A DNA stretch of 29,278 bases from a virus: the IMG/VR virus record IMGVR_UViG_3300009034_000171, positions 1 through 29,278 of that record; one strand, written 5' to 3'. The position numbers and the translations under genes are program-made. Of the stretch, positions 1,151-29,278 are shown piece by piece (position 1 is the first letter of the stretch; every line of letters begins with the position of its first letter). The notes beneath the pieces were generated by a model. It was not told where the DNA came from and made no database searches. It was given only the letters and a program-made list of their open reading frames with translations.

Positions 1151-2488
1151 CTATCGTATGCCCAAAGATTCATGACTCCTACTCTGTGAACTACTAACAA
1201 CTCTGATTCTCAATTTGAATAGAGTATAAACCCCATATCGCATCGCATCCATCCCATCATCTTTGTCTTTGACCATATCCTCTTTCGTCTTCAGATTCGC
1301 CCACAAGTATGTCGGGAACTCCTCAACTGTGGATGTCGGCCTGCGATTCATCAGAAGCCGCTGATCCAACTCTACCAAAGAGCCGACCAGAAAGAACATC
1401 CGATCCTCTTCTATCAGCTTATAAACCTGCTCCTGGCCACCCAAACGGGACTTTTTGGCGTTGACTGTCTTCACGCCTTCGGAGCGCAAGACAGCCGCTC
1501 CATGTGCATCATGATCGCAGATTACTTTGGCTTCAATTCCATCATGGAGGCAAAACTGGACGATCTCTTTCGCATGGTCAGATACTAACCTGTTACTCAT
1601 ATAGATTTCGCGATACATATACCAGAAATCGCCAGGAGAAATAGCCCACCATTGACACACAAATGGATGGTCAAACCCGAAATCTACAGTGATAACACGC
1701 CGCCAATCGTCCGGGATTTTCAAGAGACTAGTCCGCGCGGTGAACTGCTCCATAGTTATCAGATGCTTAGTTGGATCAAACGGATAAACCATCCCTTCCG
1801 CAGCAACCCACATACCATCTCTATATCTCAGCCTGAAGACGCCAGTAAGTTGGTCAAGCCGCTGATAGTATATTGGCGGCAAATCTGGAAGGATTTGGCC
1901 CTGAATCTCTCTATAGCCATCGAGCTTATTGGTGAAAAAGCGACTGTAGAGCCAATGGGCAGGAGCGTCTGGATTGGAAAGCAGAAACGCTTGATGGAAG
2001 CCAACACCCGGAAGCCGCAAACACCGGAGAATTTGAGTCTCAAAATCTTCTTCAGTAATCTCCTTAGCCTCTTCTACTACAATAAGACCATATTCGCGGG
2101 AGGCTAACTTCGTGACTTCCTTTGTGGAGTCCAGACCACATCCCCAGAACTCTGTGCCATTGTTAATCTTTCGATATAATAGACTATCATTCGACCTGAC
2201 AACTAAACTCGGTGGCAGAACTTCGTCAATAAATTTCTTCCAAAGAGTCGGCACTAAGTCAACGCGCTTCTTCCGAACCAAAGCGATGCAATTGTTAGGA
2301 AACAATATGCCCACGCCAAAGGCCTTCGCCGCGCCTACATGCGTCTTTCCACTTCCCCAAGGCCCATGAAATAGTAGCGTTGGACTATTATCATCAAGTG
2401 CCTCCGCTTGTGGCTGATTCTTTGCCACAAACTCACGCTCTCCCTCTTCCTCAGATATGCCTTCATAATCTATAAGGACTGTGCTCAT
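1151..2488 (-). CDS. terL: terminase large subunit (ATPase-nuclease)
   Basis: 445 residues, normal length for the PBSX/Terminase_3 type. It is the packaging motor that translocates and cuts phage DNA at the portal. The ATPase half shows Walker A GPWGSGKT (residues 42-49), Walker B with the catalytic Glu in YGLIVVEEAKE (about 133-143) and the coupling motif LLSNP (169-173). The nuclease half shows the RNase H-like acidic residues: Asp269 in ITVDFGFD, Asp325 in VICDHDAHG, and Asp411/Asp414 in KDKDDGMDAMRYG. The ATG overlaps the terS stop by four bases (ATGA), with AGGA before it. All expected motifs are present, so it should be functional. Confidence 0.95.
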   Translation of the reverse strand: MSTVLIDYEGISEEEGEREFVAKNQPQAEALDDNSPTLLFHGPWGSGKTHVGAAKAFGVGILFPNNCIALVRKKRVDLVPTLWKKFIDEVLPPSLVVRSNDSLLYRKINNGTEFWGCGLDSTKEVTKLASREYGLIVVEEAKEITEEDFETQILRCLRLPGVGFHQAFLLSNPDAPAHWLYSRFFTNKLDGYREIQGQILPDLPPIYYQRLDQLTGVFRLRYRDGMWVAAEGMVYPFDPTKHLITMEQFTARTSLLKIPDDWRRVITVDFGFDHPFVCQWWAISPGDFWYMYREIYMSNRLVSDHAKEIVQFCLHDGIEAKVICDHDAHGAAVLRSEGVKTVNAKKSRLGGQEQVYKLIEEDRMFFLVGSLVELDQRLLMNRRPTSTVEEFPTYLWANLKTKEDMVKDKDDGMDAMRYGVYTLFKLRIRVVSSSQSRSHESLGIR

Positions 2489-2916
2489 TTGTCCTTCCTC
2501 ATTGCGAGGATCTTCTCCATAGTGACACCAACGAACTTGAAGGCAACTGGGCGGGATTCTGTGCCACCATGCTCAACCTTTTCAATAGGCTTCAATCCAA
2601 CACGATCAAGAGCGTCTTTCACCGCTGATAATTTTATGCCATCTATCTCCGGCTTATCGACCATATTGTATAGCTCTTCAACTGCTCTCTGGCCAATTCT
2701 GCCTAAACGTATTCTATTAGCCCTTTCTATCACCTCCAAGCGGCGCGCAATTTCCTCCTGAACTCCAATATTTTCCAATAATTGATAAGCACCGGCAGAA
2801 GCGACATGATCGTCTTTTGGACTGTAGCCAGCGTCTTTGTACGCATTTATCTGTGTCTTGCCCTCGAATAAGCCATCCACAAACTTGCGCTGTTTTAGAT
2901 TCAATTTCTTACTCAT
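2485..2916 (-). CDS. terS: terminase small subunit
   Basis: 143 residues, typical of the Terminase_2/XtmA small subunit, which binds the packaging start site and recruits TerL. The N-terminus LNLKQRKFVDGLFEGKTQINAYKDAGY is the family's helix-turn-helix DNA-binding segment (quoted here only as its landmark KQRKFV...AYKDAGY), followed by a helical oligomerisation core and a C-terminal tail. The assignment also rests on the four-base overlap with terL. Upstream are 65 bases that separate it from the last mom gene and hold the 3' half of a tRNA-like element. The ribosome site is weak (AGGAACGACGCTC then ATG), so its start is less certain than most here. Confidence 0.9.
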   Translation of the reverse strand: MSKKLNLKQRKFVDGLFEGKTQINAYKDAGYSPKDDHVASAGAYQLLENIGVQEEIARRLEVIERANRIRLGRIGQRAVEELYNMVDKPEIDGIKLSAVKDALDRVGLKPIEKVEHGGTESRPVAFKFVGVTMEKILAMRKDK

Positions 2917-2948: not shown

Positions 2949-3018
2949 TGGAGCGGACGAACGGAGTTGAACCGCCACTCTCTAGCTGGTCGCCAGAGCA
3001 CTGCCCTCAGGCGTCCGC
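2949..3018 (-). ncRNA. tRNA-like element with encoded CCA at the mom-terS junction
   Basis: On the minus strand, 70 bases carry the outer half of a tRNA. A perfect 7-bp acceptor stem (GCGGACG with CGTCCGC) is followed by discriminator T and an encoded CCA. A 5-bp T stem (GGCGG/CCGTT, two G-T pairs) encloses the loop TTCAACT. The inner 35 bases are not canonical: they can form a 3-bp D-like stem (GAG/CTC) or a 6-bp stem (CTCTGG/CTAGAG) with loop CGACCAG, which lacks the usual U33. The element overlaps the last 12 codons of the upstream mom gene. Possible roles, all inferred: RNase P processing between mom and terS, a packaging or regulatory signal, or a decayed tRNA. Confidence 0.6.
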
Positions 3019-3626
3019 TTCGGATATGGAATCGCAAGGGGGAGAATCTTTCTCCGCATCCCCCTATCCAGGGGATACAGATACTTATACTTTACACCAG
3101 TCTCAACCCTACACACATGCGGATCTATCTTTCTAAGAATTTCCATCCTGGTCGTGCCATACTTCCCCTGTAATGTGCGAGGATGCTCTACTTTCCCAAA
3201 TATTCTAATATGTTTCGCGCTCCTAGTTCCAACGAAAATCCAATTCGATGCCTGATAGATGATACCAAGATGCCCTTGACCATCATCTGCATATGACACA
3301 CAAAGCCGCAATCCCGGATTAGCCCCTTTCAATAATCTAATTGCAGCCGCTAGCACTTGACTAACAGGTGTCTCATGCCGCCGCATCGCTACCCTCAAAC
3401 ATTCACATACTTCCTGTTGCTTCAAGGCATATGGCTTTCCAATATTAGGAGTCGCACCCAATCCAAAGACGATAGCACCAATAAATTGACCATTCTCCCA
3501 AACGCCGATCTTAGCCAATTTGCTAGCTGGCATAGCTCTACTATAATGCCAGTGTTTAACAGCATACTTCGCCGCTTCGTGACTACACCAATCAACTACA
3601 AGACCATTCTTTTGAGCAAAATTCAC
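2982..3626 (-). CDS. mom: Mom-type adenine modification protein, copy 1
   Basis: 214 residues, resembling the phage Mu Mom family (GNAT-like fold). In Mu, Mom converts adenine in DNA to N6-(methylcarbamoyl)adenine and so blocks host restriction. Visible signatures are VDWCSHEAAKYAVKHWHYS near the N-terminus, KIGVWENGQFIGAIVFG, VCECLRVAM, GLRLCVSYADDGQGHLGIIY, a KYGTT segment and YPLDRGMRRKILPLA near the end. The GTG start lies one base after the previous stop (TGATGTG), implying translational coupling; it aligns with the starts of both sister genes. The C-terminus runs about ten residues beyond copy 2, into the tRNA-like element. Family assignment is by motif memory; enzymatic chemistry in this phage is inferred. 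Confidence 0.85.
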   Translation of the reverse strand: MNFAQKNGLVVDWCSHEAAKYAVKHWHYSRAMPASKLAKIGVWENGQFIGAIVFGLGATPNIGKPYALKQQEVCECLRVAMRRHETPVSQVLAAAIRLLKGANPGLRLCVSYADDGQGHLGIIYQASNWIFVGTRSAKHIRIFGKVEHPRTLQGKYGTTRMEILRKIDPHVCRVETGVKYKYLYPLDRGMRRKILPLAIPYPKRTPEGSALATS

Positions 3627-3627
3627 A

Positions 3628-4251
3628 TCAATTCCCATCACGCTTCGGATATGGCATCGCCAGTGGCATAATCCGCCTTCGCATCCCTCTATCAAGTGGA
3701 TACAGATATTTGTACTTCACAGCCATTTTAACCCAACAAGCATCCGCATCAAAAGTTCTGAGCACATCTATCGCTGTCGTGCCATATTCAGCGGAGATAG
3801 ATCGCTTATGTCTGATTTGCCCGAATATCCTAATCTCGTCTTGCTCCGCAGTTCCAACGAAGACCCAATTAGATGCCTGATAAATAATCCCCAGATGCCC
3901 CTGCCCATCGTCCGCATAAGATATGCAAAGTCGTAAGCCGGGATTACCTTTTTTCAATAATGCTATTGCTAAACTCAGTATCCTGCTAACAGGTGTATGA
4001 TGGCTACGCATCGCTACCCGGATACATTCACAAACCTGGTCTTGACTTAACCCATAAGGACTCCCTATCCTGTAGTTTGCCCCACGCCCGAATATGATCG
4101 CTCCGATAAACCCTCCGTGCTCCCAAACTCCAATCTTGACCAACTTCCCAAATGGCATAGTCTCCTTATAATGCCAACGTTGACAAGCATACTCCGCAGC
4201 CTCGTGGCTACACCAATCAACTTTCAGGTCAACCTTCTGAGATACACTCAC
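3628..4251 (-). CDS. mom: Mom-type adenine modification protein, copy 2
   Basis: 207 residues, the closest paralogue of copy 1. The two share long identical stretches, including ADDGQGHLGIIYQASNW and YKYLYPLDRGMRR, so a recent duplication is likely. The motif order is the same: VDWCSHEAAEYAC, KIGVWEHGGFIGAIIFGRG, VCECIRVAM, RLCISYADD and a C-terminal LAMPYPKR. I choose the GTG at 4251, six bases after GAGG, because it aligns with copies 1 and 3; a TTG at 4263 in the same frame is possible. It overlaps the end of copy 3 by 23 bases. Keeping two near-identical copies suggests distinct sequence targets or dosage, but neither is shown. Confidence 0.85.
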   Translation of the reverse strand: MSVSQKVDLKVDWCSHEAAEYACQRWHYKETMPFGKLVKIGVWEHGGFIGAIIFGRGANYRIGSPYGLSQDQVCECIRVAMRSHHTPVSRILSLAIALLKKGNPGLRLCISYADDGQGHLGIIYQASNWVFVGTAEQDEIRIFGQIRHKRSISAEYGTTAIDVLRTFDADACWVKMAVKYKYLYPLDRGMRRRIMPLAMPYPKRDGN

Positions 4252-4894
4252 TTTGATCCTCAACTCTCCGTTTGGGATATGGCTTGGCTAATGATTGGAT
4301 CTTGCGCCGCATCGCCCTATCCAATGGGAAGAAGTATCGATGCTTTCTGCTACTTCTAACTAAAACCACTTCATCTGGTTTAGCGCACCTATAATGCCGA
4401 CCAAACTTGGTAGTCCAACCTGATGCTGTGACATTTTTCTGATGATAGATTTTTCCAGTTTTTTTGTGCCTGTATAGTCCGGTAGGATCTGTGAGACCTG
4501 TGTAAATCCAATTAGTTGCTTGATAAATGCCGCCATGATGATTCATATACAAATCCGCGAACGACACCAATAGCCGCAAGTTAGGAGAGAGTTCCCGGAG
4601 TTTACGAATAGCTATGGAGAGGATTTTGGAGACGGGCGTTATGTGCGTATCTAAGGCGATTCTCACACATTCAGCAACCTGCATCTTATCAATACCGCAA
4701 TAGAGTTTGGTGCGTCCTAACAGGCCATCACCAAAGATAACGCATCCAATAAATGCCCCATTCTCCCAGACTCCGATCTTGACGAGTCTACCAATAGGAA
4801 TTGATCGACTATAATGCCAACGTTCACAAGCATATTTAGCGGCTTGGTGACTACACCAATCTACAACAAGATCAGCTTTTTGGGATGAATTCAT
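4229..4894 (-). CDS. mom: Mom-type adenine modification protein, divergent copy 3
   Basis: 221 residues and the first mom gene of the triplet in transcription order. The N-terminal core is conserved (VDWCSHQAAKYACERWHYS, KIGVWENGAFIGCVIFGDG, VAECVRIAL, LRLLVSFADLYMNHHGGIY). The C-terminal part carries a longer basic insert (TGLYRHKKTGKIYHQKNVT) before FPLDRAMRRKIQSLAKPYPKR. The ATG at 4894 has CGGAG eight bases upstream. It begins inside the last 23 bases of the ParB-like gene, so the two are translationally coupled. The insert falls where target or cofactor specificity could differ from the other two copies; that is inference. Confidence 0.85.
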   Translation of the reverse strand: MNSSQKADLVVDWCSHQAAKYACERWHYSRSIPIGRLVKIGVWENGAFIGCVIFGDGLLGRTKLYCGIDKMQVAECVRIALDTHITPVSKILSIAIRKLRELSPNLRLLVSFADLYMNHHGGIYQATNWIYTGLTDPTGLYRHKKTGKIYHQKNVTASGWTTKFGRHYRCAKPDEVVLVRSSRKHRYFFPLDRAMRRKIQSLAKPYPKRRVEDQSECISEG

Positions 4895-5381
4895 GTCCAC
4901 ACTCCGGGCAAACAATGGGAGATTTCTGGTCAAGTCTTGGTTGCTGACCTTGAGTCGTCGGCTCGAATGCAGGAATCTCAATCTCCTCTTGCGTGAATCC
5001 AGTTCGTTCGATCTCAACGCCCATGTCTTGTAACTCACGAATCAGCACATCACGTTCTTCGATATTCCACGATGATCGCTCCTGGAGTTTGTTATCAGCA
5101 ATCATCCACGCTTCTGCCTTGCCCTCTGGGAAATCCAGTTCCATCATCCAAGATCCAGTCTTGCCCTCTTTCTTCTTTGCCTCGATCAAGCCATGCCCGG
5201 TCAACACATAGCCCGTAGACTTCTGGAAAGAGATTGCTATTTTGCCATCTCCATACTCTTGTATGCTCCTTTGAAGCCACTGGATTTGGTCTTCTGTGTG
5301 AATGCGGGGATTCCTGGGATGAGGTTCCACCTCCGAAAATTCCTTCCAGACGATTTTCGGCTTAATTCGCTTTTCGTCCAT
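4872..5381 (-). CDS. ParB-like domain protein with C-terminal zinc ribbon
   Basis: 169 residues. The start resembles ParB/Srx-type domains (ParBc): VWKEFSEVEPHPRNPRIHTEDQ, a helix QIQWLQRSIQEYG, then GYVLTGHGLIEAKKKEG, where the family usually has GHGR; here the Arg is Leu. A SAM-methylase partner domain, common in phage ParB-methylase fusions, is absent. The last 20 residues hold CPECGH, a half zinc knuckle. ATG at 5381 has GGAGG six bases upstream, and the QueD-like stop lies four bases before it. Its link to three mom genes suggests DNA targeting or a cofactor role in modification; this is inferred from position only. Nuclease activity, reported for some relatives, cannot be judged. Confidence 0.72.
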   Translation of the reverse strand: MDEKRIKPKIVWKEFSEVEPHPRNPRIHTEDQIQWLQRSIQEYGDGKIAISFQKSTGYVLTGHGLIEAKKKEGKTGSWMMELDFPEGKAEAWMIADNKLQERSSWNIEERDVLIRELQDMGVEIERTGFTQEEIEIPAFEPTTQGQQPRLDQKSPIVCPECGHEFIPKS

Positions 5382-5384
5382 CAA

Positions 5385-5843
5385 CTACCTCCCGATATTT
5401 GAGCACCTAACTTGTCCTACAAGTTCTCCAGTCTCCAGATCCGCCACAGTTTGTAAACGAGGATCGCATATCACTGGCTCTGGAAAGTATAGAACCGATC
5501 CATGCTTTGGAGTGGATACTCTCACAGACTCATGCGGCGACTCTATAAGCTCAGAAAGCCATTTGGCGATATTTGCCGATGTGGGATTAAAGTCAAATAC
5601 ATCATTAAGAACTTCATGATGCGGCAATAATGTATGTAGACCATCTCTTAACGTTGAAACGTTAGGCAATAGTCCCTCTATTGGTCTCCCATCAAGCCCA
5701 AGCGTATTCTTGCCAAGATCGCTATCCTCATAGATATAGACGACCTCAACCGTCCATGTATGCCCATGCAGTCTGGAGTGAGAGCCACAGCCCTCAATCA
5801 AATGCGCAGCATCAAACGTTCCATCAATTGGTACTCTGAACAT
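5385..5843 (-). CDS. QueD/6-pyruvoyl-tetrahydropterin synthase-like protein, altered active site
   Basis: 152 residues. The fold signature of the PTPS/QueD family is clear: FDAAHLIEG (zinc His14), RLHGHTWTVEV (zinc His26 and His28) and NPTSANIAKWL. In QueD this zinc enzyme turns dihydroneopterin triphosphate into carboxytetrahydropterin, on the path to preQ0 and deazaguanines. Several catalytic positions differ: His22 stands where the catalytic Cys is expected, His75 replaces Asp in the LDH triad motif, Ala90 replaces Glu in PT-EN, and the late Glu is missing. It may use another pterin-like substrate or be a binding protein. It is first in the mom-ter operon, with ATG five bases after GGAG and a promoter just upstream. 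No QueC or QueE gene is in view. Confidence 0.75.
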   Translation of the reverse strand: MFRVPIDGTFDAAHLIEGCGSHSRLHGHTWTVEVVYIYEDSDLGKNTLGLDGRPIEGLLPNVSTLRDGLHTLLPHHEVLNDVFDFNPTSANIAKWLSELIESPHESVRVSTPKHGSVLYFPEPVICDPRLQTVADLETGELVGQVRCSNIGR

Positions 5844-5864
5844 AATAGCTCCTCTCAATCTTGT

Positions 5865-7931: not shown

Positions 7932-8762
7932 CTATGCCGCCGCTTTTTGCTCCGTCTCCAGCGACTCTACTAATGATCCGACAATTTCTTTGACAGCTTT
8001 GCTGATGCTTTGCATGGAAGCCATCATTTTCTCGTGGTCGCCATTCCATGATGCTATGTATACAGCACTCTTGCTCTCCAGACCGAAGTGGGTCAAAACC
8101 ACATGCGTTACTGATTCTGCCTCGATCTCACGCTGCTCGCTGCTGATTTCTCGATTCTGTCTATGGAGAATTTCATGAGCTATTTCGTGGATTGTTGTCC
8201 CAACCTGCTCATTGACGGTATTGTCACCATTGATCTCAATCTTGCCGCCAGAAGATACACCGCCAACTCCCCATCCCAATTTGGTGAAGTCAACAGCAAT
8301 GCCCTTGTCTTTGCAAAGACTTAGAAGACCATCCAGAAATGGTCTCCACGAGTCGTCACTCACGCGATGATCTGGGATTGGAAGTGGATCGCCGTCAGTC
8401 TGAGAGATGTCGAATACGGAGACTGAGAAGAAATACCTGACCATTTTCTCAGTTTCATCTCCATTGTCGTCAGTCTCTATTCGCTTCGATTGACCTGGAG
8501 CAAGTATCCTAATCGACTTCTCGCCCTTCTGGACTTGCCTGCCCATCTTCTGCCATGCTTTGTAACCAGCAACGAGTGTTGCATCTGGATTCTGAATCAT
8601 AATAAGCATCTGATTATGAAAGCTGTATTTGTGAAATTTGCTCATCACTTCCACAAACTTAGTGAACTCCTCTGACTGCTTAACCTCGTCCGTTTCGGCT
8701 GCCAGTTCCTTCAAACGATTCTCAACGTCTATAACCAATTTCCTTGCTTTTTCGCCCATCAT
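7932..8762 (-). CDS. ArdC-type antirestriction protein with zincin domain
   Basis: 276 residues. The N-terminal part matches the ArdC N-terminal domain: FHKYSFHNQMLIMIQNPDAT, then AGYKAWQKMGRQVQKGEKSI and IRILAP. In relatives it binds single-stranded DNA and helps incoming DNA escape restriction. The C-terminal part is a zinc metallopeptidase: HEIAH (residues 192-196) and a downstream Glu in EIEAESVTH as probable third ligand. GGAGG precedes tandem ATGs at 8762 and 8759; either may be used. A regulatory inverted repeat lies directly upstream. With mom and methylase genes in the same window it fits a layered defence against restriction; target cleavage has not been shown here. Confidence 0.85.
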   Translation of the reverse strand: MMGEKARKLVIDVENRLKELAAETDEVKQSEEFTKFVEVMSKFHKYSFHNQMLIMIQNPDATLVAGYKAWQKMGRQVQKGEKSIRILAPGQSKRIETDDNGDETEKMVRYFFSVSVFDISQTDGDPLPIPDHRVSDDSWRPFLDGLLSLCKDKGIAVDFTKLGWGVGGVSSGGKIEINGDNTVNEQVGTTIHEIAHEILHRQNREISSEQREIEAESVTHVVLTHFGLESKSAVYIASWNGDHEKMMASMQSISKAVKEIVGSLVESLETEQKAAA

Positions 8763-8911: not shown

Positions 8912-9478
8912 CTATTTATCTAACTCTCTCGTCTTTATGTAATACCTCATCGTATCATAACCAACGCTATGAGACCGGGCTAATTGCGCCTTAGTGACTC
9001 CAGCTTTCAATGCCTCCCTGATGGTCTCCGATTCACCAGTGAGCTTGGCTTTCGATGCTCCAAGCCCCTCGCCCAAACCGTGCTTGATCACATACTCTTT
9101 CACTCCAGTATAACTAAGACCATACATCCTCGCTATCTCTGCTCTGGAGACACCATCTTTTAACAGCGTCCGTATAACTCCCTCCTTCCCATCCAGTATC
9201 GAGATCGGACGATATGTCTTATATGCTTCTCTGACTGGTGCTTTTGGTGCTTTCTCCGCTATCTTTAGACGTTCACCTGCTGAAAGTGGATTCTTAACTT
9301 TCTTGACCGCCACAATCTCTCCCCACTTCACCACAGCATATTCGCCACAAGAATAGCGGGATGGAGTGTATCTTGTAAAGACAACCTCTCCATCCTCAAT
9401 GTATGCAAACATTCTGGAAGCGTCCAGCTTGAAATAGTCAGCCTCGGCAAGAATCCGCTGCTTCTGCTTCTTCGTCAC
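8912..9478 (-). CDS. tandem helix-turn-helix DNA-binding protein
   Basis: 188 residues. Two copies of a resolvase/Hin-like HTH unit follow a basic N-terminal region: GVIRTLLKDGVSRAEIARMYG with LSYTGVKEYVIKHGL (about 104-138), and TIREALKAGVTKAQLARSHS with VGYDTMRYYIKTREL (about 153-187). The duplicated fold suits recognition of a long or repeated site, such as the inverted repeats nearby. The N-terminal 90 residues are unassigned. Its start overlaps the curlin-repeat gene by ATGA. The family is seen; its role as regulator of the TGGTCAATT operators is a guess. The 28 bases after it and the box upstream of ardC fill the remaining gap. Confidence 0.72.
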   Translation of the reverse strand: MTKKQKQRILAEADYFKLDASRMFAYIEDGEVVFTRYTPSRYSCGEYAVVKWGEIVAVKKVKNPLSAGERLKIAEKAPKAPVREAYKTYRPISILDGKEGVIRTLLKDGVSRAEIARMYGLSYTGVKEYVIKHGLGEGLGASKAKLTGESETIREALKAGVTKAQLARSHSVGYDTMRYYIKTRELDK

Positions 9479-9825
9479 TTATAATCACTCATCCTTTGGA
9501 CTATAATTGCTATTCCACCATTTCCAATTTGTGTAATTGATGCCTTGAAGTGATCCCCATACTGGAAGATTGCAGCATAGTTAGAATCTCCCTCCTGGAC
9601 TATAGTTGCTTTATTATGGCTTCCCCGTTGGAATATCTCTGCAATATTGAAGTCTCCCTTCTGGTCTATTGTTGCCGCATTGAAATCTCCAATCTGCTGG
9701 ATCGTGATCTCATTAAAAGCGCCATCAGACTCAAATGAGTATTCATTGTCTATCCCAACTTGCTCGATATATGCTACACTATCGGCAAGACTAATCAGAG
9801 TCAATAATATTGATAGAGCTTCCAT
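9475..9825 (-). CDS. curlin-repeat (amyloid-type) protein
   Basis: 116 residues. After a hydrophobic N-terminus (LSILLTLISLADSVA, possible signal peptide, but without a basic n-region) an 11-residue repeat runs to the end. Gln recurs at 44, 55, 66, 77, 88, 99 and 110, Gly two residues after each of the first six, Ile two before, and Asn at 38, 49, 60, 71 and 82. Units read like NAATIDQKGDF and NIAEIFQRGSH. This is the Q-x-G-x-x-N-x-A pattern of curlin repeats (CsgA/CsgB), which stack as beta-solenoid amyloid. No csgG-like exporter is in view. It sits between a zinc protein and an HTH protein in an intracellular-looking operon. The ribosome site is weak. Confidence 0.72.
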   Translation of the reverse strand: MEALSILLTLISLADSVAYIEQVGIDNEYSFESDGAFNEITIQQIGDFNAATIDQKGDFNIAEIFQRGSHNKATIVQEGDSNYAAIFQYGDHFKASITQIGNGGIAIIVQRMSDYK

Positions 9826-24656: not shown

Positions 24657-25427
24657 CTAATATGTCAACGCCATCTCTCCCTGCGCTGTCAGCTTCTCCA
24701 TTCTCACCTTGCCCTCTGTGATGTACTCCTCGCTTAACTCCATGCCAATATAATGCCTCTTCATCTGGCGACAAGCGATTGCTGTCGTCAAACATCCCAT
24801 GAATGGATCAAGGACGACATGACATGGATTCGTGAACGCCCTCAAAACCTCCCGCGTCAATGCCAGCGATGTCTGCCCCGGATTAGTCGTGCGCCCCTCT
24901 TTGTAGTAGAATCCCTCTCCTGGAAGTCGGATGTTTTTCCACAAGTCTTTTATTGATTGTCCCTTTGGCTGATCTACTGCCCACGATGTTGTCAAGAGAC
25001 CATGCCATTGCATAGCAATTCGCGTGCTCCCAAACTTGTTGCCGGCGGCTCGCTTCTCTACAATGATCAACTTGGCTTCTGGCATCATGCTCCAGAAGGT
25101 ACGGACTCGCTCTTGGCATAGAAAGATAGCCACGCCATTTCGGGAGATCCTGTGCGCTTGATATAGGACATCCGAATGGAATCGCCAATACTGACGCGGC
25201 TCAAGGTTATCCCTAAAGACTCCATAATTTTTCTTTTTGTTGTATGGTGGATCATAAAATACGAGCTGGACACTGTTGGCAGGCATTCCTTTCATCATAT
25301 CCAGACAGTTAGCGCAATATACCTTGTCTATCTCTGGCATCTCACCAGTTGAATGAAGAAAATCTCTCCTCTCAGTGGATGGATATTGTGATGCCGTTTC
25401 TTGTAACTTATTCTTTCTCTGGCTCAT
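24657..25427 (-). CDS. DPPY-type DNA methyltransferase (N6-adenine or N4-cytosine)
   Basis: 256 residues. Motif IV DPPY is at about residue 60 (VQLVFYDPPYNKKKN), and the SAM-binding motif I lies near the C-terminus (VVLDPFMGCLTTAIACRQMK, then YIGMELSEEY): the beta-class order. In motif I the usual GSGTT reads GCLTT, a notable change near the SAM pocket. The enzyme would methylate amino groups in DNA, giving protection from restriction. ATG 25427 follows GGAGG by nine bases and overlaps the upstream gene by 20. Target sequence cannot be deduced. No endonuclease gene lies beside it, so it is an orphan methylase. Confidence 0.85.
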   Translation of the reverse strand: MSQRKNKLQETASQYPSTERRDFLHSTGEMPEIDKVYCANCLDMMKGMPANSVQLVFYDPPYNKKKNYGVFRDNLEPRQYWRFHSDVLYQAHRISRNGVAIFLCQERVRTFWSMMPEAKLIIVEKRAAGNKFGSTRIAMQWHGLLTTSWAVDQPKGQSIKDLWKNIRLPGEGFYYKEGRTTNPGQTSLALTREVLRAFTNPCHVVLDPFMGCLTTAIACRQMKRHYIGMELSEEYITEGKVRMEKLTAQGEMALTY

Positions 25428-25611
25428 CAGAAACCCCCTCCAACTCATTTTCATGATACCAGGTTATATTTTCCTCCAATCGCCTATCCAAGCGATAATG
25501 ATTTTCGATTGTCGTTTCCCACACTTGCACGACTTTGGCATGACAAACAGGCCCAGACTGCAATCTGACTGACACCAAATCGCCAACATTAAACTTCGGA
25601 CTCTCGCTCAT
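25408..25611 (-). CDS. small SH3/KOW-like hypothetical protein
   Basis: 67 residues. FNVGDLVSVRLQSGPVCHAK, then VVQVWETTIENHYRLDRR and TWYHENEL, has the strand pattern and VGD turn of a small SH3-like barrel. ATG seven bases after GGGAGG. It immediately precedes and overlaps the methylase, so an accessory DNA-binding role is possible but unproven. Confidence 0.58.
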   Translation of the reverse strand: MSESPKFNVGDLVSVRLQSGPVCHAKVVQVWETTIENHYRLDRRLEENITWYHENELEGVSDEPEKE

Positions 25612-27561: not shown

Positions 27562-28338
27562 TCAGATTCCTCCTTCTATTTCCCCTCTAGTCTTAGACAG
27601 AATTCTCAGTATCTCTTGCCCTCTGCTGGAACTAAGCCAATAAAATCCCTCCTTCTCATATGCTGGATATTGATTCCAGTTTGTGCCAAGTAGGAACGTC
27701 CATTGCTGCTGTGTTTCTGGTTCGCGAATGAGCCAGAATCTCTTGCCAACAATCTGCTCAATCCCTGCTTTCAAATCGAACTCCACAGGAATATGTGTTG
27801 TAGGACTCCTACGCGCTCGCTTCAATGCCGTAGCTGAAAGGCTGATTAGAAAGTCCACCTTTGCATACTGTGGATACTCGCTGATTGTCCGCAACAAAAA
27901 GAATGGTGGAAGCGATCCAGATGGATCGGTGTAAAGGAGACCAAACTTAGCCTTCGCGCCGCGTAGGTCTATCGGCATAACCTTTCTATGGTCTCCCTGC
28001 ATTACAGAGATGTCTCCCTGATTGAGATATGGTTTGACTTGCTCAAGCAACTTCACAGTATTCTTTCTATTCCTCTCCATTAGATATGCTTTGTATTGAA
28101 TCCGAAAACTAAGGCACTCTTGCAGAAAGATAATCGGACTACCTGTGATTATCTCCCCATTCTGCCCAGCATAGATCCCAGGCCCTGCATTGAGATCGAA
28201 GTAATAGAAAGACGGATCTGCCCACTTTTTTCTACGTAGAATACTCTGGACAATCCCTAACTGCATATGAATCAGTTTCCTGAAAAAATCTTGCTTCCCT
28301 ATTGTGTAATCTGAAATTCCAACTCCTCTAGCCTTCAT
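27562..28338 (-). CDS. tcmP: three-Cys-motif partner protein TcmP
   Basis: 258 residues. FYYFDLNAGPGIYAGQNGEI and TGSPIIFLQECL (about 44-76), then LLYTDPSGSLPPFF, are hallmarks of TcmP proteins. They have a methyltransferase-like Rossmann start (D-x-x-A-G-x-G) and occur next to three-Cys-motif Gp37/Gp68 proteins. The biochemical reaction is not known. Its ATG overlaps the stop of the methylase-like gene, and the Gp37/Gp68 gene lies one gene further upstream, so the known pair is present with a methylase half between. The length is somewhat short for the family; the C-terminal helical half may be reduced. Confidence 0.8.
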   Translation of the reverse strand: MKARGVGISDYTIGKQDFFRKLIHMQLGIVQSILRRKKWADPSFYYFDLNAGPGIYAGQNGEIITGSPIIFLQECLSFRIQYKAYLMERNRKNTVKLLEQVKPYLNQGDISVMQGDHRKVMPIDLRGAKAKFGLLYTDPSGSLPPFFLLRTISEYPQYAKVDFLISLSATALKRARRSPTTHIPVEFDLKAGIEQIVGKRFWLIREPETQQQWTFLLGTNWNQYPAYEKEGFYWLSSSRGQEILRILSKTRGEIEGGI

Positions 28339-28907
28339 AGTTTCTCTGCCTCCTTTGTAAAAGCAAACTCCATCTGTTGCCTATGTTGCTCTCCACTTTC
28401 TGTCAAGATGTGATCGCCCGTCTTGGAGCAATCCAATGGCAATATTTCTTGATGGTAAAACAGGATGTATTCTGCCATCTGTTGATAGTTTCTGAGTCCA
28501 TTTAGTTCAACATATCCGTCCAAATAGCCTTCGTTCCCTACGCCATTGTATGGTTTATTCCATACCAAAAACTGCTTGAAGATGAATAAAGTATTTTCCT
28601 CTATCCATTTATCAAGCCTACTCATGAGCGGCCAATCGTTGTGAAAGAAGTAATAACTCCCATTATTTTCTAATACCCGTTCCGCTTCCTTTATCCAAAA
28701 ACCTGACCATTCAAGGTAGTTGTCTATCTTGTCCCATTCTGCCTTGCCAATGTTATATGGAGGATCGTTGACAAGTAGATTTATATTCTTGTCGGGCATA
28801 GCCTGCATAACCTCCAAGCAATCCCCACAAAATAGCAGACCGTCCTGCTCCTCGTAGTAGAGGTATTTCTCCAATCCTTGCTTATAATCGGCAGGCCATT
28901 CCATCAC
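28335..28907 (-). CDS. DPPY-type DNA methylase lacking the C-terminal SAM motif
   Basis: 190 residues. LLFCGDCLEVMQAMPDKNIN, LLVNDPPYNIGKAEWDKI and RVLENNGSYYFFHNDW are the N-terminal half of a beta-class adenine/cytosine-N4 methylase (catalytic DPPY near residue 49). The expected C-terminal DPF-G-GTT motif for SAM binding is missing; the protein ends after QQMEFAFTKEAEKL. It may be a degenerate fragment, or borrow a SAM pocket from the adjacent TcmP, whose N-terminus looks methyltransferase-like. GTG start overlaps the Gp37/Gp68 stop (GTGA), with GGAGG upstream. Confidence 0.75.
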   Translation of the reverse strand: MMEWPADYKQGLEKYLYYEEQDGLLFCGDCLEVMQAMPDKNINLLVNDPPYNIGKAEWDKIDNYLEWSGFWIKEAERVLENNGSYYFFHNDWPLMSRLDKWIEENTLFIFKQFLVWNKPYNGVGNEGYLDGYVELNGLRNYQQMAEYILFYHQEILPLDCSKTGDHILTESGEQHRQQMEFAFTKEAEKL

Positions 28908-29278
28908 TCTGGATATTCCTCCGGGACTGATTTCAAGTTCGGTTTGAAATATAGAGCACAGTTAGCTTTTCTGGCTTCCATCTGTATCTCCTCAACCCAA
29001 TCAAATGGCGGATGGAATTCTGGCATGTTACTATTTCTGCTCCGACCGCCAACAACCACCCACCTGACCCAATGCAACGCTGGAAGCGGTTTCCCGTTAA
29101 GACCGATCAAATGCAGTTGCTTTACCTTCGCGCTACTGAGCTTGAATGAAATCCGCGATTGAAGCGGCTCAAAAGAGATGAAGGTTATGTTCCCTGATCC
29201 TCTCAATTCTCCAAAGGCTTTGAGAGCAGGAATGAGAGCCGCCTGCTCATGCACAGTGACACCAATCCAAAGGTTTGG
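28904..29278 (-). CDS. Gp37/Gp68 (DUF5131) three-Cys-motif protein, cut by window end
   Basis: Only the C-terminal 124 residues are inside the window; the frame stays open to the last base (PNLWIGVTVHEQ). Recognisable DUF5131 features: LWIGVTVHEQ, NITFISFEPLQSRI, a WVRWVVVGGRSRN strand-loop and the end WVEEIQMEARKANCALYFKP. The N-terminal three-Cys cluster, radical-SAM-like in this family, would lie beyond the edge. Known partner of TcmP, seen just downstream. In other members SF-EP and VGG-S are highly conserved and they persist here. Function of the pair is unknown. Confidence 0.8.
   Translation of the reverse strand, partial: PNLWIGVTVHEQAALIPALKAFGELRGSGNITFISFEPLQSRISFKLSSAKVKQLHLIGLNGKPLPALHWVRWVVVGGRSRNSNMPEFHPPFDWVEEIQMEARKANCALYFKPNLKSVPEEYPE

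Follow-up and report, generated by a model that had tools for sequence, protein, structure and literature searches.

The window analysed here, a stretch of 29,278 nucleotides, is essentially the entire 29,279-base IMG/VR record IMGVR_UViG_3300009034_000171, a viral fragment of ~29 kb. On its minus strand, a ParB-like gene, three mom genes and the two terminase genes lie in the order ParB-like, mom1, mom2, mom3, terS, terL. The ParB-like gene (4872..5381, with a likely ATG start at 5381 and a possible TTG start at 5384) encodes a phage ParB/Srx-type domain (PHROG 620, ParB-like, E 2.5e-27) and a C-terminal CxxC tail (...IVCPECGHEFIPKS). It is followed by mom1 (4229..4894; PF25680, E 5.3e-44), the mom gene that is transcribed first, by mom2 (3628..4251; E 1.1e-41; start GTG 4251 or, alternatively, TTG 4263) and by mom3 (2982..3638; E 4.2e-45), which correspond to copies 3, 2 and 1, respectively, of an original prediction that was made from the DNA letters. 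The small terminase subunit (TerS; 2485..2916; PF03592, E 1.3e-9; PHROG 51) and the large subunit (TerL; 1151..2488; PF04466, E 2.1e-9; PHROG 2, E 4.7e-35) complete the array.

The original prediction described three adjacent paralogues, joined by overlapping or one-base junctions and fused into the packaging operon. All three mom frames were intact on the minus strand, the motifs that it had quoted (e.g., VDWCSHEAA and YPLDRGMRR) occurred in the order given, and the array indeed lay ahead of terS-terL, with a gap of 65 nt between mom3 and terS and an overlap of 4 nt between terS and terL. The junctions overlapped by 23 nt (ParB/mom1), 23 nt (mom1/mom2, counted from GTG 4251) and 11 nt (mom2/mom3), and one-base junctions were not found among them. 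'Fused' was too strong a term, as the mom genes overlap but stay separate; they are probably translationally coupled.

In phage Mu, mom is preceded by com, which encodes a zinc-finger protein that activates mom translation through an mRNA hairpin. In the window, the place directly upstream of the mom genes was occupied not by a com zinc-finger gene but by the ParB-like gene, with its single CxxC. Com-like RNA hairpins were sought at eight junctions of the ParB/Mom and Mom/Mom types; z values of -0.8 to +2.1 made them no better than shuffled controls, and the window junctions were without a stable hairpin, unlike the Mu com-mom operon. A translational switch of the Mu com type was therefore unsupported.

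Several other genes were detected in the window. A QueD/6-pyruvoyl-tetrahydropterin synthase-like gene (5385-5858, minus strand; PF01242, E 1.8e-9) lies directly upstream of parB and could hint at a deazaguanine pathway, for which no partner genes were seen. Further minus-strand genes encode a protein with an ArdC N-terminal anti-restriction domain and a weak metallopeptidase match (7932-8762), a phage-encoded Curlin-associated repeat protein (9475-9825; PF07012, E 3.5e-21) and two further N6/N4 DNA methylases (24657-25454 and 28335-28907), the latter with a match confined to the first half of its model. A DUF5131-like gene was located at 28904-29254.

Family membership and conserved residues

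The three proteins matched PF25680 over model positions 2-202 of 202 with 143-154 bits, as compared to a curated cut-off of 27.1 (E-values from 4e-45 to 1e-41), and all three matched PHROG 1384 (Mom-like DNA modification protein). When PDB sequences were searched with a profile of the three window Moms, Mu Mom (8bv8) was the sole match (E 5e-17). An AlphaFold2 model of mom1 (pLDDT 89.6) likewise retrieved 8bv8 as the first-ranked structure (E 6.6e-12, TM 0.64-0.70), followed by other GNAT acetyltransferases; mom1 was the copy for which a structure was modelled, and the GNAT fold is assigned to mom2 and mom3 by homology. A search of NCBIfam yielded nothing useful. All available tests assigned the three window genes to the Mom family, as had been predicted, and profile searches placed none of them in an unrelated acetyltransferase family.

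Residues needed for activity were also retained. The title of PDB entry 8bv8 describes an inactive S124A mutant, and S89 of mom1 aligns with Mu S124 in a register that was set by eye from the profile alignment, ungapped between S-[RK] and SFAD; a Ser occupies this position in all three copies. Equivalents of the essential residues of Mu Mom, which we take to be H48, Y49, D139, and Y149 (in a shorter numbering), are H27, Y28, D114, and Y124 of mom1. None of these residues varied among the aligned relatives (37/37), and all were kept in the three window copies. The window proteins and Mu Mom thus have the family profile, the predicted fold and the S124 and H/Y/D/Y equivalents in common, while Mu has one mom gene and the window three coupled copies, which, unlike Mu mom, adjoin the terminase genes. 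Mu Mom is the enzyme that makes N6-(methylcarbamoyl)adenine, by which viral DNA is disguised from bacterial defences. To our knowledge, Mom chemistry is known essentially from this one enzyme.

Relationships among the three copies

Copies 1 and 2 had been described as close, and the protein identity of mom2 and mom3 (64-65%) was indeed higher than that of mom1 with mom2 (48%) or with mom3 (46%). Nucleotide identity among the copies was only 53-68%, which ruled out an assembly echo. For mom2 and mom3, dN (0.27) was far below dS (1.57), indicating purifying selection that has kept the proteins functional. The basic insert that had been noted in mom1 was present as ~5 residues (3+1+1, including RHK) but is not a special feature, since the length of this region varies across the whole family.

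In trees of the paralogues, mom2 and mom3 were sisters (SH-aLRT 97-98) and mom1 was placed apart from them when the topology was free. An approximately unbiased (AU) test did not reject monophyly of the three window Moms (p 0.59 and 0.135), which is thus compatible with the data yet unproven. A signature of common ancestry was found at the residue level. Next to an invariant Glu, at a position that is Leu in every other Mom read (185/185; E-L, as in Mu Mom), all three window Moms carry a Cys, giving E-C. This Cys is residue 76 of mom1, residue 80 of mom2 (counted from TTG 4263) and residue 79 of mom3 (numbered from the residue that follows Met), and in the mom1 model it is part of a core strand of the GNAT fold. 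In addition, the three window copies had rare residues in common at four alignment columns; for other thirds, the mean was 0.41. Because of the unique Cys and the four rare residues that they share, the triple is best read as the probable product of a local amplification of one ancestral Mom. Independent acquisition of mom1, as suggested by the free trees, is not required by the AU test and is less likely given the shared Cys.

Mom copy number in other phages

The original prediction assumed that phages usually carry a single Mom. This was correct for isolate phages, in which tblastn located Mom in 190 records and at one place in each (190/190), while some other viral contigs carry tandem pairs. 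A search of IMG/VR with a Mom alignment gave 561 stretches that encode relatives, and copy number was read in 180 Mom-holding loci. Six other IMG/VR lineages have two intact Mom genes in tandem, namely L015, L049 (identical to L107), L129/L130, L170, L171 with L172/L173, and L193, in which two Moms of a divergent group (3542-5037) follow a ParB with a different tail (NGNA..ICQ). Loci L064/L066, L088, and L105 were rejected as tandem pairs, because in each of them a frame break or stop divides what is one Mom gene; in L105 (Salinibacter phage B2_17, an isolate phage record), the frame break interrupts the Mom gene at 4990-5617.

A second triple was found neither in the 190 isolate records, nor in the 180 IMG/VR loci, nor among matches to the DNA pattern of the Mom/Mom junction. 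Two scans with this pattern retrieved seven contigs only, including the L015 and L170-L173 pairs; L169 and L174 matched the pattern, but two Mom genes were not shown in them. Relatives retrieved by terL, mom1 or mom3 alone were at loci at most 47% identical, none of which held a triple. Among 398 genomes of Bacillota, the phylum of L084, Mom scored above the cut-off in five and two Moms occurred in none. For the jumbo phage PA5oct, five momylating enzymes have been listed in a review (PMC7824862). In its genome, PF25680 gave one sub-threshold match, inside a gene annotated as a Hef-like homing endonuclease. On the review's count, PA5oct resembles the window in having several Mom-superfamily proteins in one phage, while the matches to PF25680 in the window are three, full-length and coupled. 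Multiplicity of Mom is thus rare but not unprecedented, and the window adds a triple of coupled genes to the known cases.

Adjacent, co-directional Moms in the same genomic slot are common to the window and to the IMG/VR pairs, which have two copies, mostly of different subfamilies, where the window has three with a signature of common ancestry. For four other pairs, the AU test indicated that the members are not sisters (p 0.005, 0.005, 6e-8, and 3e-4), with p 0.07 for the pair in L170, and most pairs join different Mom subfamilies. In the related phages L171 and L173, the second Moms are 93.5% identical at the protein level and the first Moms come from different subfamilies. Similarly, a phage with two Moms (L049:3987-10237) is 91% identical to one with a single Mom (L108), in which the first copy is missing and the Mom genes are joined in their conserved 5' part. 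On this comparative evidence, the arrays of other phages are assembled by exchange.

A ParB-like gene and an exchangeable cassette ahead of the terminase genes

A ParB-like gene was located directly upstream of Mom in 89 of 92 loci (not dereplicated), and a CxxC motif close to the C-terminus of this ParB was present in 88 of the 92. In 91 loci, the largest gene downstream of Mom was most often that of a terminase large subunit, of many types, or of a portal protein. A Mom gene that adjoins the terminase genes directly after a CxxC-tailed ParB-like gene is thus the usual arrangement. The window conforms to it, with the ParB-like gene directly upstream, the terminase genes downstream, all on the same strand, and a ParB tail (CPECGHEF) of the Mom-linked type. 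Among isolate phages, phiEf11 and Microbacterium phage Appa also have a CxxC-tailed ParB-like gene directly upstream of Mom, and in Arthrobacter phage Martha one small gene separates the two; each of these phages has one Mom, as opposed to three in the window.

The contents of this slot were surveyed by a scan for ParB-like domains from which the tails had been removed. Among 80 loci, the commonest class was that of a ParB fused to N6/N4-methylase motifs. Genes that followed ParB encoded Mom, the divergent Mom, m5C methylase (PF00145), TET/JBP (PF12851) together with FkbM, TAGT (PF20691), an ABC-ATPase, an ABC-GNAT fusion and a formyltransferase. The CxxC tail did not qualify as a mark of Mom only, as it also occurs in ParBs ahead of m5C methylases and in a few others, and as ParBs of the divergent Mom group have another tail.

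Comparison of closely related phages indicated that the cassette and the ParB tail are exchanged together. Five loci (L178, L185, L198, L199, and L202) were 87-92% identical at both ends, with cassettes between ParB and terS that are unrelated to one another, so that Mom, m5C methylase, TET/JBP, and ABC-ATPase cassettes replace one another between near-identical flanks. The left breakpoint of these loci falls within parB, at about codon 127, and the ParB tail consequently changes with the cassette. Between L015 (two Moms) and L175 (ABC-ATPase), for example, the ParB N-domains are 94% identical and the tails 16%. Across 43 loci that are related to one another, pairs whose N-domains were at least 80% identical had a median tail identity of 82% where the cassette was the same and of 35% where it differed. 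The 10th percentile of same-cassette pairs (0.745) exceeded the maximum of different-cassette pairs (0.64), and none of 2000 label shuffles was as extreme, in an analysis in which the divergent Mom group was treated as a class of its own after the first result; with this group unsplit, the closest pairs were equivocal.

Since its tail is exchanged with the cassette, the ParB-like protein and the modifying enzyme are probably matched partners. The simplest reading would be that the tail contacts the enzyme encoded by the next gene. It is genetic linkage and co-exchange that point to such a partnership. A more general interpretation, which we put forward tentatively and do not favour over a more limited one, is that of an exchangeable phage module, in which the ParB N-domain would act as a constant loading platform. 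The ParB tail would be swapped beside the terminase genes as a matched unit with the enzyme encoded downstream, be it Mom, tandem Moms, m5C methylase, TET/JBP plus FkbM, TAGT or ABC-GNAT. In the window, a single ParB would then work with three Moms that have diverged in site preference or in adduct.

Proposed role of the three Mom proteins

The explanation that best accounts for these results, with a probability that we estimate at about 0.6, is that the three operon-borne Moms modify the phage's own DNA, and that they were amplified and diverged in a slot where ParB is their partner. The three GNAT-fold enzymes, produced from one operon, would place an acyl- or carbamoyl-type group on the N6 of adenines in phage DNA. 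The ParB-like protein would serve as partner or loader, binding phage DNA with its N-domain and bringing in the Mom enzymes with its tail. Adenines of replicated DNA would be acylated before or during packaging, and the modified progeny would resist restriction by the host. Local amplification of one ancestral Mom, followed by divergence under purifying selection, would most likely have served to widen modification to more sequence contexts or to more than one adduct and secondarily to raise the dose.

The chief alternative to such a division of labour is that the three enzymes differ neither in their reaction nor in their target sites and that amplification only raises the level of enzyme late in infection. 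Tight coupling within one operon and a local amplification marked by the unique Cys of all three copies would also fit a demand for more enzyme, and the absence of the first copy in L108 relative to the 91% identical L049 illustrates how easily copy number changes. A protein identity of 46-65%, in contrast, indicates copies that are too diverged for a recent amplification, and the joining of different subfamilies in pairs elsewhere (AU p 0.005 to 6e-8) is not predicted by dose as such. While a dose effect alone is a serious contender, we consider it unlikely; the divergence of the copies and the mixed pairs elsewhere lean toward three specificities, and each copy may plausibly have a specificity of its own.

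The slot is a hot spot of recombination, and the copies could in principle be leftovers of exchange, whose multiplicity brings no selected benefit. Retention of three intact frames with their essential residues and a dN well below dS make such an origin improbable. More doubtful still is the proposal that these proteins are GNAT acyltransferases acting on a protein, tRNA or small molecule rather than on DNA. It draws on the generality of the GNAT fold and on the many acetyltransferases that match the mom1 model. Against it, Mu Mom was the best match by both sequence and fold, with generic acetyltransferases at least five orders of magnitude weaker, and the other occupants of the slot are DNA-modifying enzymes (m5C methylase, TET/JBP, TAGT).

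With three diverged Moms in one natural operon, the determinants of site choice and of adduct in this family become directly accessible. The exchange of ParB tails is the part of these results that is most worth following. Co-exchange of tail and enzyme would provide the orphan 'ParB-like' genes of many phages with a concrete, proposed job, the targeting of DNA-modifying enzymes, and new modification enzymes could be sought by reading the genes that lie between such a ParB and terS.
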